DNA of 64,000 nt. It comes from Phycisphaerae bacterium. Its GTDB lineage: Bacteria; Planctomycetota; Phycisphaerae; Phycisphaerales; Phycisphaeraceae. Position 1 is the first letter of the stretch; every line of letters starts with the position of its first letter. A program made the position numbers and the translations under genes. Positions 55,283 through 64,000 of the stretch are shown one piece after another. The stretch is taken from assembly GCA_030425705.1 (NCBI GenBank), contig JAUHZU010000002.1, positions 603,108 to 667,107 of the forward strand, given 5' to 3'. Below the pieces are notes generated by a model. The model had not been told where the DNA came from. It saw nothing but the letters and a program-made list of their open reading frames with translations, and made no database searches.

Positions 55283-56698
55283 ATGCTATTGCGTTCCATT
55301 GCCTATAAAACACTCAAGATTTCGTGCGTGCTCTTGCTTGCGATCACGGGCTGCACGCCGTCACCTTTTGACTTGGACTTGCCCGAGACCCGGCCGCTGA
55401 TCCGCGACCTGCCCCGGCACGCCGCGCCCGCCGACCCCAAACGCCAACACCACGACGGGACAGGGCCCGCTGTATCGGGTGAGCTGTCATTGCGGGACGC
55501 GCTCGCGGCGGCGCTGCTTCACAACCCGCGGCTGCACGCCTCGGCGTGGGGGCCGCGCTTAGAAGAAGCCAACCGACTCCAGGCGGGTCTGCGGCCGAAC
55601 CCCGAGGCCGGGGTCGAGTTCGAGAACTTCGCGGGGTCGGGCGAGCTGAGCGGGGCCGACGCCCTTGAAACCACGCTCATGCTCAGCCAACTGATCGAAC
55701 TCGGTGGCAAACGAGATTCGCGCGTCCGCGTCGCGGAAGAAGCCTGGCGGGTGTCCGCCTTCGATTACGAGGCCGAGCGTCTTGCGGTCCTCACGGAAAC
55801 CGCAACGCGATTTGTACGGGTGCTGGAAATCCAGCAGCAGGTCCAGCTCGCCGAGCGGACACGGGATTTGGCCGAAGAAAGCCGCCGGGTCATCGACCGG
55901 CGGGTGCAGGCCGGGGATGTCTCGCCGATCGACGAAATCAGGGCCCGGCTCGAAAGCGAGTCGGCCCGCATCACCGCAGACCGGTTGAATCGTGACCTGG
56001 ACGCGGCCCGTCGCGACCTGAGCGCTATGTGGGATCAGGACGAGCCGACCTACACGGCCCTGATCGGTTCGCTTGACCAGCTCGGCCCGAATCCGTCGCT
56101 GGCCGACCTGTCCATACAGATCGACGCTCACCCCGACGTTCGGCGTTGGGCGGCGGAAGCGGACCGCTTGGCGGCCGCGGTTGAGCTGGAGCGGGCCAGG
56201 GGCGTGCCGGATGTCAATGCGGGGCTGGGGGTCCGCTATGAGAACGAGATCAGCGACGCGGCCTTGGTAGCGGGGGTGTCGGTGCCGCTGCCGATTGTCG
56301 ATCGGAACCAGGGCAACATCCTCGCCGCCCGTTTGCGTGCGGCCCAGGCGATTGACGAGGGCAGGGCGATCCGCCGTGAGTTGGCGACGCGACTGAATCG
56401 AGCGCATGCCCGGCTGTCGGCCGCCTACCACGAAGCCCAGGCGATTACCGATGTTCTGCTGCCCGCGTCGCGCGACGCCTATGAGGCGACCCGCCGCGGC
56501 TACGAAGAGGGCAAAGTTCCCTACCTCAGCGTGCTCGACGCGCAGCGCACGCTATTCGATACCGAGGCCCAGCGGCTCGAAGCCCTGGCCGAATACCACA
56601 CCGCACTGGTCGAAGTCGAGGGGTTGATCGCAACCCCGCTCGACGCCGTTGATTCAGGAATGACTCCACCACCCCCAACCCCAGGAGACCAACCATGA
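55283..56698 (+). CDS. czcC: TolC-family outer-membrane channel (CzcC-like)
   Basis: 471 residues. Lipobox LLAITGC (about residue 23) and the double helical-hairpin repeat of TolC: LRDALAAALLHNPRLHASAW and ERARGVPDVNAGLGVRYENE. The stop overlaps the adaptor start by ATGA. Outer component of the CzcCBA tripartite pump. Confidence 0.88.
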   Translation: MLLRSIAYKTLKISCVLLLAITGCTPSPFDLDLPETRPLIRDLPRHAAPADPKRQHHDGTGPAVSGELSLRDALAAALLHNPRLHASAWGPRLEEANRLQAGLRPNPEAGVEFENFAGSGELSGADALETTLMLSQLIELGGKRDSRVRVAEEAWRVSAFDYEAERLAVLTETATRFVRVLEIQQQVQLAERTRDLAEESRRVIDRRVQAGDVSPIDEIRARLESESARITADRLNRDLDAARRDLSAMWDQDEPTYTALIGSLDQLGPNPSLADLSIQIDAHPDVRRWAAEADRLAAAVELERARGVPDVNAGLGVRYENEISDAALVAGVSVPLPIVDRNQGNILAARLRAAQAIDEGRAIRRELATRLNRAHARLSAAYHEAQAITDVLLPASRDAYEATRRGYEEGKVPYLSVLDAQRTLFDTEAQRLEALAEYHTALVEVEGLIATPLDAVDSGMTPPPPTPGDQP

Positions 56699-58248
56699 GT
56701 CCCGTTACCCACCCCTGGCTCAGAGGCCTCGCGGCCACCAGCCTTATCGCCGCATTGGCCTTGCTGTCCGCTTGCGGAGGCGAGGACACCAGTTCCGTGG
56801 AATCGGATGAAGACGCCGCCGCGCCGGTCGCGCACACGCACGCAGATGGCAGCACCTGTTACATCTGCGACGCCGATCAACGTGAGGCCGGACGCCTGTG
56901 GTGCACCGAACACGGCCGCTACGAAGACCGGTGCTGGCTGTGCCAGCCTCAGCTCGAAGACCCGGACCGGCCGTATTGCAAAGAGCATTTCCTGTACGAA
57001 GACGAGTGCCACCTGTGCAACCCCGCGCTGCGGGAGGGCGGTTCTTCGCCCTCCGGCGACGCCGGGGCGGCCGCCCCAAGCGCGACACCCGCATTGTTTT
57101 GTAACGAACACGGGGTGCCCGAGCTGGAGTGCGGCATCTGCCAGCCCCAACGCGCGGGCACATTGGCCCCCGGCGAGTCACTCAGTATCAGGATGCCTTC
57201 CGCCCGTTCGGCCGAGTTGGCCGGTCTCACGGTCGAGCGGCCCGGCCGCGGTTCGGCCACCGCGTCCCTGCAACTGCTCGGCGAGGTGCGCTACAACGAA
57301 AACCGTCGGGCCTCGGTCACGCCGCTCGCCGCGGGTGTGTTGACCGATATCCGGGTCGATGTCGGTGAATCGGTCGAGGCGGGGCAGGTCCTGGCGGTCC
57401 TGAACTCGGCCACTGCGGCCGAGGCCAAGTCGGCCTACCTCTCGGCTTTAGCGGAACTCGACGTGAAGACGGCCGCCTACGAGCGTGAGCAACGCCTGGC
57501 GGAGGAAAACATCGCCGCCCGCCGCGACTTGCAGGAGGCCGAGGGGGCGCACCGCCTCGCGGTCCTGGCGGTCAATCAAACCCGCCAGCGTCTCTTCAAC
57601 CTGGGCTTTACCGAGAAGGACGTGCAGTCGATCGAGGACACGCAGTCGGCCAGCTCGGACTTGTTGATCCGTGCCCCGTTCGCAGGGACCGTGATCGAAC
57701 GTAGCGCCGCACTCGGCGAGTCGGTCGACTCCGAGGCGATTTTCGCCATCGCCGACCTGTCTACGATGTGGATCGATCTGGCGATCCCCGAAGACCAAGC
57801 CATCCACCTGGCGAAGGGCGGGGCGGTGTCCGCCCACGTCCGAGCGCGGCCGGGACAACCCGTCGCTGGTGAAATCATCTGGATCAGCCCGCAGATTGAC
57901 GAACAGACCCGCATGGTCCGCGGCCGAGCACTGGTGCCCAATGACGACGGCACCCTGCGGCACGGCATGTTTACCGAGGTAACGGCGGTCGTCGGCACCC
58001 CAACGGAATCGTTGCAGGTTCCGGCCGATGCGGTCCACCAACTCGACGGCGGGACATTCCTCTTCGTGCGTAACGAAGCGGACCTCTACGCGCTGCGGCG
58101 GGTCGAAGTCGGCCCGCGATCTGCATCGGGCGCGGCCTCGATTTTGGCTGGCCTGGACCCGAGCGAGAGCGTGGTCACCGGCGGGAGCTTCACGATGCGG
58201 ACCGAGTTCCTCAAGTCCCGGCTGGGTGCCGGTTGCGTTGACGACTAA
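56695..58248 (+). CDS. czcB: RND periplasmic adaptor (CzcB-like) with a cysteine-cluster N-terminus
   Basis: 517 residues. Lipobox LLSACGG. Residues about 55-145 hold at least three repeats of the type CxxC...C-EH-xYEDxCxxC (CYICDADQ, CTEHGRYEDRCWLC, CKEHFLYEDECHLC, CNEHGVPELECGIC) that should form small zinc-type knuckles. The fusion-protein core follows (VTPLAAGVLTDIRVDVGESVEAG...). The repeats are not part of classical CzcB and may capture divalent metal before hand-over. Confidence 0.9.
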   Translation: MSPVTHPWLRGLAATSLIAALALLSACGGEDTSSVESDEDAAAPVAHTHADGSTCYICDADQREAGRLWCTEHGRYEDRCWLCQPQLEDPDRPYCKEHFLYEDECHLCNPALREGGSSPSGDAGAAAPSATPALFCNEHGVPELECGICQPQRAGTLAPGESLSIRMPSARSAELAGLTVERPGRGSATASLQLLGEVRYNENRRASVTPLAAGVLTDIRVDVGESVEAGQVLAVLNSATAAEAKSAYLSALAELDVKTAAYEREQRLAEENIAARRDLQEAEGAHRLAVLAVNQTRQRLFNLGFTEKDVQSIEDTQSASSDLLIRAPFAGTVIERSAALGESVDSEAIFAIADLSTMWIDLAIPEDQAIHLAKGGAVSAHVRARPGQPVAGEIIWISPQIDEQTRMVRGRALVPNDDGTLRHGMFTEVTAVVGTPTESLQVPADAVHQLDGGTFLFVRNEADLYALRRVEVGPRSASGAASILAGLDPSESVVTGGSFTMRTEFLKSRLGAGCVDD

Positions 58249-58259
58249 TTGGAGTTTGT

Positions 58260-61200
58260 ATGCTCGCCCGACTCATCGAGTTTTCACTCAAGAACCGCAT
58301 CCTGGTGATGCTGCTGTTCGCGATCGCCTGCGCCGCCGGGATTTACCGGCTGGTGCAGCTCCCGGTCGATGCCTTCCCCGACACCACGCCGGTGCAGGTG
58401 CAGATCAACACCATCGCCCCGGCGCTCAGCCCCGAAGAGATCGAGCAGCAGATCACGCTGCCGGTGGAGCTGTCGATCGGCGGTCTGCCCGGCCTGCAAA
58501 ATGTTCGATCGGTCTCCAAGTTCGGCTTCTCGCAGGTGGTCGCCACCTTCGACGACGACACCGAGATCATCGACGCCCGGCAGTACGTCACCGAGCGGCT
58601 CTCGACCGTCGAGCTGCCCGAGGGGGTCGGACGCCCCGAGTTGGGGCCGATCGCGACCGGTCTGGGGGAGGTCTTCCACTACACCATCAGCTCCGATGAC
58701 CCCGACCGCTCGATCGAGGAGCTGCGGACGATCCACGATTGGGTGATCAAGCCGGAGTTGCGGAAGGTCCCCGGCGTGGCGGAGGTCAACTCCTGGGGCG
58801 GGCACGAGCGGCAGTACCACGTCGTCATCAATCCCGAAGCCCTCATCAAGTACGGCTTCACGATGGACCAAGTGCTTGAAGCCCTGGGCCGCAACAACGC
58901 GAACGTCGGCGGCGGCCAGCTCGTCACGTCGGGCGAGGCCCGGATCGTGCGCGGCGTCGGCCGGGTTTCGAGTATCGAGCAGATCGAGAACATCGTCGTG
59001 GCCTCTAACGACGGCACGCCGGTACGCATCCGCGACGTGGCGAACGTCGAGATCGGCAGCGAGATCCGGCGCGGGGCGGTGTCAGCATCCGGCGAGGGCG
59101 AGGTGGTGCTCGGCCTAGCGTTCATGCTGATGGGCGAGAACAGCCAGGAGGTCACCGAGCAGCTCCGGGAACGCCTCGACTCGCTTGAACCCTCGCTACC
59201 CGACGATGTGAAGGTCGAGGTCGTCTACGACCGCACCACGCTCGTGGACAAGGTGATCGAGACGGTCAAGCACAACCTCGTCATCGGCGCGGCCTTGGTG
59301 GTGATCACGCTGCTGGTGCTGCTGGGCAATATCCGGGCCGGGATTCTGGTCGCGGTGGCGATCCCGATCTCGGCGTTGTTCGCCGTCCAGGGCATGCACG
59401 AGTTCGCGATCGCCGCGAGCCTGCTCAGCCTTGGCGCGATCGACTTCGGCATCCTCGTCGATGGCTCGGTGGTGATGACCGAGGCCAACCTGCGGGGACT
59501 CAAGAAGCGGCAGCGCGATCTGGGACGCAAGCTCACAAGCGACGAACGTCTCCAGTCGATTGCCGAGTCGAGCGCCCACGTGGTCAGGCCTATCGTTTTT
59601 GGGATGGCCATCATCGCACTGGTCTTCGTGCCCGTCCTCACCCTGGAGGGCACCGAGGGCAAGCTGTTTCGGCCGATGGCCTGGACGTTCATCTTTGCCC
59701 TGGCGGGCGCACTGCTGATCGCGGTCTTCCTGTCGCCGGTACTGTCGTACTACTTTCTGCCGAGGCGGACCAAGCCCAAAGAAGGACCGATCAGCCGGGC
59801 GATGAGCGGCTCCTACGGGTGGCTCGTCGGCAAGGCCCTGCGCCTTCGGTGGCTCATACTGATCCTGGTCGTCGGCCTGCTCAGCGTCGCGGGCTACCGC
59901 AGCACCCAGATGGGCGGCGAGTTTGTCCCGAAACTGAGCGAGGGGTCGATCACGATCAACACCATCCGCCTGGCGGGCGTCTCGATCGAGGAATCGGTCC
60001 GCTACAACACACGCATCGAGCAGGTCCTCTTGGAGGAGTTCCCCGACGAGATCGAGCACGTCTGGAGCCGGATCGGCACGGCCGAGGTGGCGACCGATCC
60101 GATGGGGATCGAGCTGACCGACATCTTCATGACCCTCAAGCCGCGTTCGGAGTGGACCCGCGCGACCACGCAAGCCGGGCTAACCGCCGAGATGGAGAAG
60201 ATCATCTCGCAGTTCCCCGGCGTGAACATGATCTTCACCCAGCCGATCGAGATGCGGATGAACGAGATGGAGTCCGGCATCCGCTCAGATATCGGCATCA
60301 AAATCTACGGCGACGATTTCGATGAGCTGCTCCGCCTGGCCGACGAGGTGCAACGCATCCTCCTCGACGTGGAAGGGGTCTCGGATATCTCGGTGGACCA
60401 GATCACCGGCCAGCCCGAGCTGGACATCACGGTCGATCAGGCCCGCACCGCCCGCTACGGCGTCGCGTCACGCGAGGTGCTCGATTTTGTCGAGGCGATC
60501 GGTGGGATTCGGGTAGGCGAGGTGTTTGAGGGGCAGCGGGTTTTCCCGTTGGTCGTGCGCCTCCCGGAGACCTTCCGGCAGGATGTGTCGGCCATCGAAT
60601 CGGTCCGCGTTCCGACGGAAGGCGGCGTGGCGGTGCCGCTCTCGGCGATGGCTTCGGTGGACCAGACCGAGGGCGCGTCCACCATCAACCGGGAGTGGGG
60701 GCGACGCCTGATCCGGGTGCAGTGCAACGTCGTCGGCCGCGACCCCGCCTCGTTCGTTGCCGAAGCCCAGGAAGCGATCAACACCAGTGTGGCGTTGCCC
60801 GAGGGCTACGTCATCGAGTGGGGCGGCCAGTTCGAGAACCTGGAGCGGGCCAAGCTCCGCCTGGCCATCGTGGTGCCGGCCGTGCTGCTGCTGATCTTCT
60901 TCATGCTGTATTTCAGCATGAAGAACCTGCGGGACGTGCTCATCATCTACACCGGCATCCCGTTTGCGGCGGTGGGTGCGATTTTCGCATTGTGGTTACG
61001 TGACATCCCATTCAGCGTCAGCGCCGCCGTGGGTTTCATCGCCCTGTCAGGTATCGCGGTGCTCAATGGCCAGATCCTGATTGAGGCCATCCGTGAGAAT
61101 CGACGGCAGGGTTTCGACAAACAGAGCTCAATCATTGAAGCCGCCAAGACTCGACTCCGCCCGGTTCTAGCTACGGCTATCACCGACGCGGCCGGCTTCA

Positions 61201-61376
61201 TCCCAATGGCAGTTTCAACCGGGGTCGGCAGCGAGGTGCAACGCCCGCTCGCTACAGTGGTCATTGGCGGTATCATCACTTCGACTTTGCTCACGCTTCT
61301 AGTACTCCCGACAATGAGCTACCTGTTGACGGGACCTGATAGCAAGGCTCAAGTAAGAAGCAACGATGACGCATGA
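58260..61376 (+). CDS. czcA: Heavy-metal RND efflux pump CzcA
   Basis: 1038 residues, usual length. Helix 4 carries [16 protein letters not shown], the DFGxxVDG signature of the divalent-metal (Zn/Co/Cd) subgroup. The N-terminus [12 protein letters not shown] and the porter motif [16 protein letters not shown] fit CzcA. Driven by protons, it exports periplasmic metal through the adaptor and the TolC channel. It overlaps the cation diffusion facilitator gene by 11 nt. Confidence 0.95.
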
Positions 61377-62286
61377 CCATAGCCACCACGCCACCGAAGG
61401 GGTCAGCGATACTCGTCTGCTCTGGTCCTTCGTCATTAACCAACTGCTGACCGTTGCCCAGGTCGTCGCCGGCTTCCTGTCCGGCAGCGTCGCCTTGCTC
61501 TCTGACGCCGCCCACAACTTCAACGACGCCAACGCGCTGCTCATCGCATACATCGCCCGACGGGTGTCCCGCAAGGACGCGGACCACCGCTACACCTTCG
61601 GCTACCGCCGTGCCGAGCTCATCGGGGCGCTGATCAACCTCACCACGCTCGGCGTGATCGGGCTCTCTCTGGTCTATCAGGCGGTCATGCGCTTCTTCGA
61701 GCCGGTCGAAATCATCGGCTGGCTCATGGCCGCCGCCGCCGGGTTAGCGATCGTGGTCGACCTGGGCACCGCGCTGTTGCTGTGGTCCATGAGCCGCGGC
61801 TCCCTCAACGTCCGCGCCGCCTTCGTCCACAACCTTGTCGATGCGCTCGGTTCGGTCGCGGTCCTCCTCGCCGCCGGCCTCATCATCTGGCTCGACTGGA
61901 ACTGGATTGATCCGGTCCTCACCCTCGTCATCGCCGGGTATGTCCTCTGGCAGGCCTTCAAGATGATGCCCCAAGCCGTCCGTATCCTCATGGAAGGCAC
62001 GCCCCCCGACCTCGACCTCGACCAACTCGCCGAGCAGGTCGAACGTATTTCCGGCGTCGAAGCCATCCACCACCTCCACGTCTGGCAGCTCGACGAGGAA
62101 CACCGCGCACTCGAAGCACACGTCGTCACACCCGACGGGGCCGATGCGCAGTGGACACAGACAAAGCAGCAGATCAAAGACCTGCTGCAAGAAGAGTTTG
62201 ATATCCACCACTCAACACTGGAACACGAGCCACAGACACCGATCGACGAAGACTGCGAAAACGCGGGCCTGATCACCCCGCATTAG
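61366..62286 (+). CDS. czcD: Cation diffusion facilitator CzcD/ZitB-like
   Basis: 306 residues. His-rich N-terminus ([12 protein letters not shown]), ligand motifs [12 protein letters not shown] in helix 2 and [10 protein letters not shown] in helix 5, and a C-terminal dimerisation domain ending IHHSTLEHE. It exports Zn/Cd/Co from cytosol to periplasm in exchange for protons and feeds CzcCBA. Last gene of the czc operon. Confidence 0.94.
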
Positions 62287-62464: not shown

Positions 62465-62848
62465 ATGAAGTATTGCGTTGCGGCGGTCTTGCTCGTGATT
62501 GTCTTCACGCTCCTGCTGTATTCATGCAGTTCGGTGGCGTATCAGCCAGACACGTTCTGGGAAGACCTTAGGTCACTGATCGAGAAGGAGCAGCACCGAA
62601 GAGCGATCAAGTTGCTGGATCGTGCTGATATTCAGGAACAGTTAGCGCATGACGGGCAGGGCTATGTGTTGATTGCGGAAGACTTGATCTACCGGCCGGG
62701 CGTGCCCGACGCATCATCTGACCCGGAGGACGGCGACTGGGAAATCCCGGGCACCTCCGATACCAATAGATACCAGGCGTGGCAGGAGGCGGCAAAATCG
62801 TTCGCTGCGCAATACAACGCGGCGCGCTGGGCTTTGGATCATCCGTGA
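62465..62848 (+). CDS. Small lipoprotein of unknown function
   Basis: 127 residues. Signal peptide AAVLLVIVFTLLLYSC with the lipid cysteine at about 21. The mature part is helical and acidic, without metal motifs. A 14-codon frame (62423-62467) with GGAG before it ends in ATGA over this start and might act as a leader. I do not recognise the protein. The gap 62287-62464 shows no other gene. Confidence 0.55.
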   Translation: MKYCVAAVLLVIVFTLLLYSCSSVAYQPDTFWEDLRSLIEKEQHRRAIKLLDRADIQEQLAHDGQGYVLIAEDLIYRPGVPDASSDPEDGDWEIPGTSDTNRYQAWQEAAKSFAAQYNAARWALDHP

Positions 62849-62918: not shown

Positions 62919-63347
62919 ATGGAGACGACGTGGACGATTGGGAATCTGGCGAAGGCGGCGGGGCTGCCGGTCTCGACGCTGCGGTACTACGAGCGGATCG
63001 GGCTGCTCGTGCCGGGGCATCGGTCCAAGGGGAACTACCGACTGTACGGGGCGGGGGATGTCGAGCGGTTGGGGTTCATTAAAGAAGCGCAGTCGATCGG
63101 GTTCTCGCTGGACGATATCCGCGTGCTGCTGGGGCTGGAGCGGGGGACGACGGCGGTGTGTGGCGAGGTGGTGGGGATGCTGGAGGGTCGGCTGGCGGAG
63201 GTGTCGGAGCAGATGCGTCGGCTGCGGCGCGTGCAGAAGGTGCTGCGGTCGTCGCTGGAGCTTTGCGAGACGAGCGGCGACGCGGGCAGGTGCCTGCTGA
63301 TCGCGAAGCTGGACTCGTCGGCGAAAAAAATAGAATCCGGGGCTTGA
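62919..63347 (+). CDS. MerR-family regulator with a Hg/Pb-type cysteine triad
   Basis: 142 residues. N-terminal helix-turn-helix (TIGNLAKAAGLPVSTLRYYERIGLL), a long dimer helix and a metal loop. Cysteines C81, C116 and C125 have exactly the 35/9 spacing of the metal triad of MerR and PbrR, and the loop RCLLIAKL resembles the CPLIASL of MerR. ATG at 62919 gives the usual N-terminus. It should activate the selenoprotein gene 52 bp downstream through a 20-bp-spacer promoter. Confidence 0.9.
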   Translation: METTWTIGNLAKAAGLPVSTLRYYERIGLLVPGHRSKGNYRLYGAGDVERLGFIKEAQSIGFSLDDIRVLLGLERGTTAVCGEVVGMLEGRLAEVSEQMRRLRRVQKVLRSSLELCETSGDAGRCLLIAKLDSSAKKIESGA

Positions 63348-63375
63348 CCTTGCACCCGGGTTCAGCCCTTAGTAT
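63344..63375 (+). promoter_or_regulatory. MerR-type promoter with operator dyad
   Basis: TTGACC (63344-63349), a 20-bp spacer and TAGTAT (63370-63375). In the spacer the dyad TGCACCCGGGTTCA is nearly perfect. A 19-20 bp spacer with central dyad is the hallmark of promoters untwisted by MerR proteins. Confidence 0.8.
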
Positions 63376-63399
63376 GCCTATACACAGGAGCTCTTCATC

Positions 63400-63837
63400 A
63401 TGGAAACGACAATTTTTTCTATCTCGACGTTTGCCTTCATGGCCTTGGCATTGGCCGCGTGTTCCAGCTCGCATCATATTGCGGGAGATGCGGCCGATGG
63501 CCACGGGACGGAGGCGGAACACGTGGTCACCATCCTTCAGGAGGACGGCTGAGCGAACACCCCCAAGGCGGTCGCCTTGATTGAAGAGTTCGCCGAAGAA
63601 AACGATGTCGATATCCGGTTTGAGACGATCGTGGTTAGAAACGAACTGGATGTGCAGGCCTACCGCTACCTCGGCAGCCCGACCGTGCGGATCAACGGCT
63701 TGGATGTCGATCCCCGGGCACGTTCAAGCAGACAGTACGGCTTCGGCTGACGCCTGATGAACTGGACGCAGGGTGCGTCCCAAACCGAGACGATGCTCCG
63801 CAACGCCTTTGTCGAGGCGGGCTGGTTGGCGGAATAA
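63400..63837 (+). CDS. Thioredoxin-like selenolipoprotein with two in-frame UGA codons
   Basis: 145 residues if UGA at 63550-63552 (residue 51) and 63748-63750 (residue 117) are read as Sec. The lipobox is LALAAC (C21). The mature part follows a small thioredoxin-fold family of metal-resistance clusters. In that family EDC-x-N near the first strand and GC-R-V/L near the end are cysteine sites; here they read ILQEDG-U-ANTPKA and YGFG-U-RLM. The segment between (YLGSPTVRINGLDVDP) is intact, and the frame ends at TAA. AGGAG is 9 nt before the ATG. Each UGA is followed by a perfect hairpin. It lies under a MerR regulator, so a role in binding or reducing a soft metal such as mercury is likely but unproven. 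Confidence 0.85.
63564..63579 (+). promoter_or_regulatory. Candidate bacterial SECIS hairpin after UGA 63550
   Basis: CAAGGCG-GT-CGCCTTG, or with the last pair open a GGTC loop, is a perfect stem. Its loop is 20-21 nt from the U of the UGA and contains G, matching the bacterial SECIS rule. The GGTC loop resembles the one in the HMA gene. Confidence 0.75.
63764..63780 (+). promoter_or_regulatory. Candidate bacterial SECIS hairpin after UGA 63748
   Basis: GGACGCA-GGG-TGCGTCC, a perfect 7-bp stem with a GGG loop 23 nt from the U of the second UGA. Confidence 0.75.
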
Positions 63838-63959
63838 ACCAAGTGGATTTCCGATTTAGAAAGTCAGTTGGCTAGAAGCGGTTTCACAACTTTCTTCGCG
63901 GTAAGTTTGCGCTACGGGCGCACTTATGATCCAATCGGCCATGGAAAGGATTCCTGCTC

Positions 63960-64000
63960 ATGGCCACACCCCGATCAGAACTCACCGACGAACAGTGGGC
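63960..64000 (+). mobile_element. Start of an IS5-family-like transposase gene, cut by window edge
   Basis: ATG at 63960 opens a frame reading MATPRSELTDEQW, the N-terminus common to IS5-family (IS427-like) transposases (DUF4096). Only 13 codons are visible. The insertion-sequence left end probably lies in 63838-63959, perhaps near GAAGCGGTTTCACAAC at 63874, but without the right end I cannot confirm it. Confidence 0.6.

Follow-up and report, generated by a model that had tools for sequence, protein, structure and literature searches.

Double-UGA DF-family lipoprotein gene as a candidate for mercury binding in the bacterial envelope

The DF family was named in 2025 after a hypothetical protein of Desulfosediminicola flagellatus that contains a single selenocysteine (Sec), and the portion of the report consulted mentions no other TGA-containing homologue (PMC12013277). 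DF is tabulated with one Sec in the consulted portion of a 2026 inventory (PMC13188914), and neither excerpt assigns it a function. Bacterial families other than DF appear in the same portion of the inventory with two or three Sec (PMC13188914), so Sec multiplicity alone is not new. An earlier note on the DNA described here called two Sec in one small envelope protein rare, which is true of an arrangement that was nevertheless already known in bacteria. The UxxU metal-binding (seleno)protein NF041115 and the metal-binding double selenoprotein MbdU likewise carry two Sec each in the inventory and are predicted to act on metals (PMC13188914). The protein encoded in the window, the 64,000-nt stretch of Phycisphaerae DNA analyzed here, differs from both: they are different families, and UxxU is a close pair whereas the window sites lie 66 residues apart. 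It shares the NF049942 domain with the D. flagellatus protein, with predicted Sec in place of family Cys; it differs from that one-Sec protein in having two predicted Sec, being a predicted lipoprotein, being paired with a merR-like gene and belonging to a type found in several lineages.

MerP carries an adjacent CxxC motif in an HMA-type domain. The window protein would resemble MerP as an envelope-side MerT partner with two metal-ligand residues, and it differs from MerP in its predicted thioredoxin-like fold, the 66 residues between its ligands and the lack of an HMA match. NF045683, a MerT/CopZ fusion-like heavy metal transport selenoprotein, is also of mercury type and is resembled, below the cut-off, by a neighbor gene of one DF relative (L051); it is a transporter, whereas the window gene encodes a DF lipoprotein. 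Tn501 MerR regulates a classical mer operon. As judged from sequence, the window gene is best read as encoding a mercury-binding bis-selenol envelope protein: a DF-family protein, predicted to be lipid-anchored, with two likely Sec that would bind mercury(II) between them (probability about 0.64). The overall interpretation of the earlier note is supported.

The DF gene is the last complete gene in the window, and all window features given here are on the plus strand. Its frame runs from ATG at 63400 to TAA at 63835-63837 and contains two non-terminal stops, both TGA, at 63550-63552 (codon 51) and 63748-63750 (codon 117), which confirms the double-UGA observation of the earlier note. The other five frames each contain 1-5 stops across 63400-63837, and a Shine-Dalgarno-like AGGAG lies at 63386-63390. 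The read-through product has 145 residues, with predicted Sec51 and Sec117, and matches the NCBIfam model NF049942 (DF family (seleno)protein) with 90.5 bits against a cut-off of 70. The protein thereby acquires a named family, where the earlier note spoke only of a thioredoxin-like one; Pfam gave sub-threshold matches only, the best being Thioredoxin_3. A 42-row alignment of chosen relatives, in which the UGAs of Sec rows were entered as Cys and the database sequences P0002 and P0003 break off just short of site 2, has an invariant C51 column and a C117 column conserved in at least 90% of rows. The two UGAs fall on these columns, opposite the Cys of the homologues as the earlier note had said, and 28 codons of family sequence lie downstream of the second. 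Both family sites are occupied by UGA, the predicted Sec codon, and the window gene has two in-frame UGAs instead of the one Sec per protein by which the 2026 inventory describes DF, a description that is not a criterion of the model.

The N-terminal 21 residues close with the lipobox LAAC (assigned by eye), whose Cys21 (codon 63460-63462) is the predicted lipidation site. A lipobox-like Cys is aligned with Cys21 in four other UGA-bearing relatives (L051, L038, L040 and L032), which fits the lipoprotein prediction of the earlier note. The AlphaFold2 model of the window protein is thioredoxin-like, with a mean pLDDT of 84 and values above 90 for most of residues 41-120. Site 1 lies just before the first helix, and isolated bridge residues are assigned at 93 and 117, adjacent to Pro94 in an SPT loop. 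Sec117 would sit on a strand bridge, probably beside the proline loop, and sites 51 and 117 would face each other.

The selA, selB, selC and selD genes are all present in the window genome, within ~8.3 kb on contig C14, and so pass the genome check that the earlier note had set for its reading. The selC match was 64.9 bits (cut-off 47), and ARAGORN identified a tRNA-SeC with anticodon TCA. Scores were 345 bits for selB (pieces together), 520 bits for selA and 362 bits for selD, which carries an in-frame UGA of its own within DCGGUAGK. Judged by these genes, the cell can make selenocysteine. A tRNA-Sec over the cut-off was found in six of eight UGA-bearing genomes. selA was present in 5/6 UGA-bearing genomes tested (G747 and G609 lie outside these six) compared to 8/17 other DF-bearing genomes hand-picked from the phylum survey.

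DF genes from named genomes (69 loci) were used for analysis of gene context. In 36 of the 69, a merR homologue in the orientation of the DF gene lies 380-1100 nt upstream of it, and 25 of these homologues have the spacing of the Hg-ligand Cys triad. MerT, MerP, MerC or MerB is encoded in the DF gene or within 3.5 kb of it at 44 loci, a count that rises to 47 if loci with MerA-like matches only are included, and 23 loci have neither merR nor these four nearby; some queries were taken from the same loci and contig ends truncate some neighborhoods, which bears on all of these counts. DF is fused to MerT in L053 (157.8 bits, cut-off 32.9) and in L092 (32.0, just below), and to a MerC-like domain in L102 (26.5 bits, cut-off 27.6). 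DF precedes MerT-HMA in L052 and precedes MerB in L060, L065, L067 and L113, all of which exceed the Pfam cut-off. The double-UGA lipoprotein gene of L051 starts 36 nt downstream of a CopZ-MerT-HMA fusion gene. These arrangements strengthen the mercury idea, which the earlier note had offered as chemistry only. In L065 (5995-7715), the DF gene overlaps by four bases a single reading frame for a MerB-MerT-heavy-metal-associated polyprotein, a compact organomercury operon.

A reading frame of genome G011 (L122:10521-11243, minus strand) joins a DF domain to a MerC-like domain and contains three UGAs in frame, the last of which lies in the MerC-type metal motif, CPTU, where L134 (the same protein as L102) reads CPAC. 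A stable hairpin follows this UGA, and selB is 1.5 kb away. Both domains score below curated cut-offs (MerC part, 24.9 versus 27.6; DF, 43.5 versus 70), and the protein is a candidate triple-selenocysteine mercury transporter by its sequence.

The same context bears on the first alternative, in which the window protein is a double-Sec envelope oxidoreductase that forms a diselenide and reduces or exchanges disulfides or peroxides, with no direct role for metal. The thioredoxin-like model with its SPT proline loop favors this idea, as does the view, in the consulted part of the inventory, that many uncharacterized selenoproteins are redox-active (PMC13188914). However, the window protein has no CxxC or UxxC motif, the thioredoxin active-site position reading UANT, and its relatives are paired with merR and fused to or located beside MerT, MerP, MerC and MerB. 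An oxidoreductase is an unlikely explanation.

The gene upstream of DF in the window encodes a merR-like regulator (62919-63347) whose Cys81, Cys116 and Cys125 are in register with Cys82, Cys117 and Cys126 of Tn501 MerR, the Hg-ligand cysteines according to the part of PMC5027573 consulted. The best PDB match is Tn501 MerR (5crl, 87.2 bits), and CadR structures nearly equal a second MerR structure, 4ua1 (71.9 and 72.7 bits). Among NCBIfam models, mercury MerR scores highest at 105.9 bits (cut-off 150.85), a small margin over the Zn (99.3) and Cd/Pb (86.3) models, all of them below NCBIfam cut-offs. The 35/9 Cys spacing is also found in lead sensors. In contrast to the Tn501 setting, the window regulator is followed by the DF gene and has no other mer gene near it. 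Apart from this regulator, no mer gene was found within 3.5 kb of the DF gene in the window or in its near-copy, G747. A MerR-type promoter candidate, TTGACC-20 nt-TAGTAT, is located at 63344-63375 and overlaps the merR stop. Among 30 DF genes examined, namely the window gene and those of 29 of the 36 named loci paired with merR (some loci are near-copies), 10 have this pattern upstream, compared to 30 of 3000 random segments.

Heavy-metal pump genes are found farther upstream in the window. They encode an IhpA/TolC-like outer-membrane efflux component (55283-56698; all matches below curated cut-offs), an RND periplasmic adaptor with a Cys-rich N-terminus (56695-58248; TIGR01730, 159.1 bits, cut-off 94.9), a CusA/CzcA heavy-metal RND pump (58260-61376; 1147 bits, cut-off 701) and a CDF cation efflux transporter assigned by profile matches (61366-62286). 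Pumps of this type usually carry Cu, Zn, Cd or Co. Between the CDF and merR-like genes lies a small predicted lipoprotein gene (62465-62848) with no NCBIfam match and a single, sub-threshold Pfam match. The contig stops at 64000, shortly after the start of an insertion-sequence-like frame at 63960 (read by eye), and reveals little of what lies downstream of the DF gene.

A second alternative is that the two Sec bind a soft metal other than mercury, be it Pb, Cd, Cu, Ag or As, and that the protein is linked to the upstream CusA/CzcA and CDF pumps. The adjoining RND and CDF genes and the near-equal CadR matches of the regulator point this way, and the window genome has no MerT and only MerA-like proteins below the cut-off. 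Set against this, the regulator matches Tn501 MerR best, its top NCBIfam model is mercury MerR, albeit below the cut-off, and relatives of the DF gene adjoin mer genes. Another soft metal is distinctly unlikely as the ligand.

The mercury-binding reading is strengthened by the DF genes located beside or fused to mer genes and by the merR pairing in relatives. It is weakened by the lack of MerT and of MerA over the cut-off in the window genome, by the 23 of 69 loci with neither merR nor mer genes, and by the pump type, the lead-sensor Cys spacing and the small margin between MerR models. The proposed mechanism starts with SelB and tRNA-Sec, which are predicted to decode the two UGAs as Sec. With its signal peptide and Cys21, the protein would be located at the periplasmic face of a membrane, where a thioredoxin-like fold would carry Sec51 and Sec117. 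Mercury entering the envelope would be sensed by the MerR-like regulator, and the promoter between the merR-like and DF genes would open upon Hg(II). The lipoprotein would then capture Hg(II) as a bis-selenolate and shield envelope thiols. The DF domain of relatives may hand the metal to MerT, MerC or MerB; in the window genome, which lacks MerT, the metal may be held or given to the neighboring heavy-metal efflux pumps. A selenolate pair is a very strong mercury ligand. If Hg binds between the two selenols in the living cell, the selenolate pair would be built into a purpose-made trap, which would explain the retention of a costly double Sec insertion. The DF loci thus give the family a function hypothesis, mercury handling, and bring to light a two-Sec envelope form in several lineages together with a three-UGA MerC-like fusion. 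As far as the partly covered literature extends, the novelty lies in a DF lipoprotein with two predicted Sec and in how widely it occurs, in the fusion with three UGAs and in the gene context that points to mercury.

The case for the Sec sites is carried by the position of the UGAs and by covariation rather than by folding energy, and the two SECIS-like hairpins that the earlier note had described are both supported. Hairpin 1 (63564-63579) has a 6-bp stem, CAAGGC-GGUC-GCCUUG, with its loop at +18 from the UGA, and hairpin 2 (63764-63780) has a 7-bp stem, GGACGCA-GGG-UGCGUCC, with its loop at +21. A GGUC loop 18 nt after the first UGA is common to all four double-UGA lipoproteins compared (window, L051, L038 and L040), with the stems CAAGGC/GCCUUG, GAGCGC/GCGCUC and UCUCGC/GCGAGG. 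All 24 pair cells of hairpin 1 are standard in these four sequences, and two-sided changes occur at 4 of 6 pairs. Slid controls were 29-54% paired; shuffles equaled the paired percentage in 0/500 cases and the number of two-sided pairs in 17/500, a control that leans favorable with four related sequences and a structure derived from the same four. The GGUC motif also codes for a conserved Ala-Val-Ala stretch, so protein constraint accounts for part of the loop and not for the stem changes. The GGG-loop 7-bp stem at +21 of the second UGA is common to the window gene and L051.

Synonymous recoding reached an equally good stem with p = 0.017 for the first window UGA and 0.0036 for the second. Folding energies at the two sites are ordinary (z = -2.33 and -0.27; recoding p = 0.377 and 0.077), and an Rfam search at the window hairpin sites gave no match. 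Perfect stems of this quality that have G within the first two bases of the loop are found after 10 of the 13 UGA sites in seven DF genes (G747 and the third UGA of G011 are outside this count). The same holds for 11 of the 128 Cys sites taken from 64 named loci out of 69 (Fisher p = 1.3e-7, which is optimistic since the rows are related). The background rate of equally good perfect stems is 134/2384 codons in five window genes. The three sites lacking such a hairpin are the second UGA of L038 and both UGAs of L049. A third alternative is that efficient decoding is confined to one UGA, with a large share of the product truncated at a UGA and the double-Sec form a minor one. Single-Sec relatives are compatible with this: L032 has Cys at site 1 and UGA at site 2, and the sequences of P0002 and P0003 terminate immediately ahead of site 2, as would be expected if a UGA there had been called with the standard code. 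Each window UGA has its own hairpin at the bacterial SECIS distance, however, and UGA occurs at both sites together in several lineages, making it very unlikely that the double-Sec form is minor.

The spread of the double UGA was followed in three sets of genomes. DF matches were found in 35 of 392 phylum genomes at 37 places. Thirty of these loci, including that of the window, were read, and the remaining seven have no internal stop in the survey table. Four of the genomes (that of the window, G363, G025 and G011) have UGA at each of the two sites, and G225 has Cys followed by UGA. A class survey with another profile matched at least 26 of 397 genomes, with up to 10 candidates per genome scored; the double UGA is present in three of the matched genomes, G747, G609 and that of the window. 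Among the 69 named loci, of which L108 is not readable in the stretch shown, the double UGA occurs once, in a Phycisphaerae MAG (L051, JAUIHC010000034.1; genome G392) whose protein is 49% identical; the other 68 lack it, nearly all are Cys/Cys and, by eye, most have no signal peptide at the start. Double-UGA relatives are therefore present in six other genomes: G747, a near-copy from the same genus; G363, G025 and G011, with selA and a confident tRNA-Sec; and G609 and G392, without. G392 has no selA and no tRNA-Sec over the cut-off, and L051 lies on a low-coverage MAG contig; G609 has no tRNA-Sec over the cut-off, and its locus is on a 3.3 kb contig. Both loci may be misbinned and count as weaker evidence. 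Full-gene NF049942 scores are 95.1 for L051, 87.3 for L032 and 73.3 for L038, above the cut-off of 70, and 69.3 for L040, below it like the G011 protein.

A Cys/Cys lipoprotein gene disabled by two nonsense mutations (TGC or TGT to TGA) is a highly improbable source of the window sequence: each UGA is one base away from a Cys codon and no full-length copy of the window protein was found among database proteins, but UGA recurs at the same two sites in distant relatives with selA and tRNA-Sec, the frame has no other stop and continues as family sequence beyond the second UGA, and hairpin 1 covaries.

Mapping the double-Sec label onto a 44-row tree, in which L139 is on a long branch and bootstrap support is not fully settled, required 5 changes, at least 3 of them forced by well-supported branches, which makes repeated replacement of both Cys probable. 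Of the eight genomes with UGA-bearing DF genes, only G392 and G363 yielded MerT, and none yielded a MerA over the cut-off. A wider form of the mercury-binding reading, put forward tentatively, is a selenium-armed branch of mercury defense in which DF ligands changed from Cys to Sec several times, giving lipoproteins and a triple-Sec DF-MerC protein that would clamp Hg(II) as a bis-selenolate in hosts without a MerT/MerA route.

The nearest relatives have Cys or UGA at both sites, as the earlier note expected, and more distant ones may lack site 2. Site 2 is Ser, Asn or Pro in 7 of the 30 phylum loci read (by eye), none of which encodes a lipoprotein close to that of the window. These relatives (L022, L024, L026, L028, L029, L033 and L034) come, in six of seven cases, from taxonomic family f94, and L033 also has no Cys at site 1 and an internal TAA. 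The taxonomic order to which the window genome belongs also contains a clade of Cys-only DF lipoproteins with the motif EDCPGAAPT (L129, L130 and L133), whose 3.4 kb loci gave neither mer genes nor MerR matches. The DF genes of the window genome and G747 differ by 4 nonsynonymous and 1 synonymous change, which does not show purifying selection. Their neighborhoods are 98.2% identical over 10.4 kb, a match that extends 38 bases beyond the DF stop codon and is lost at 63875.
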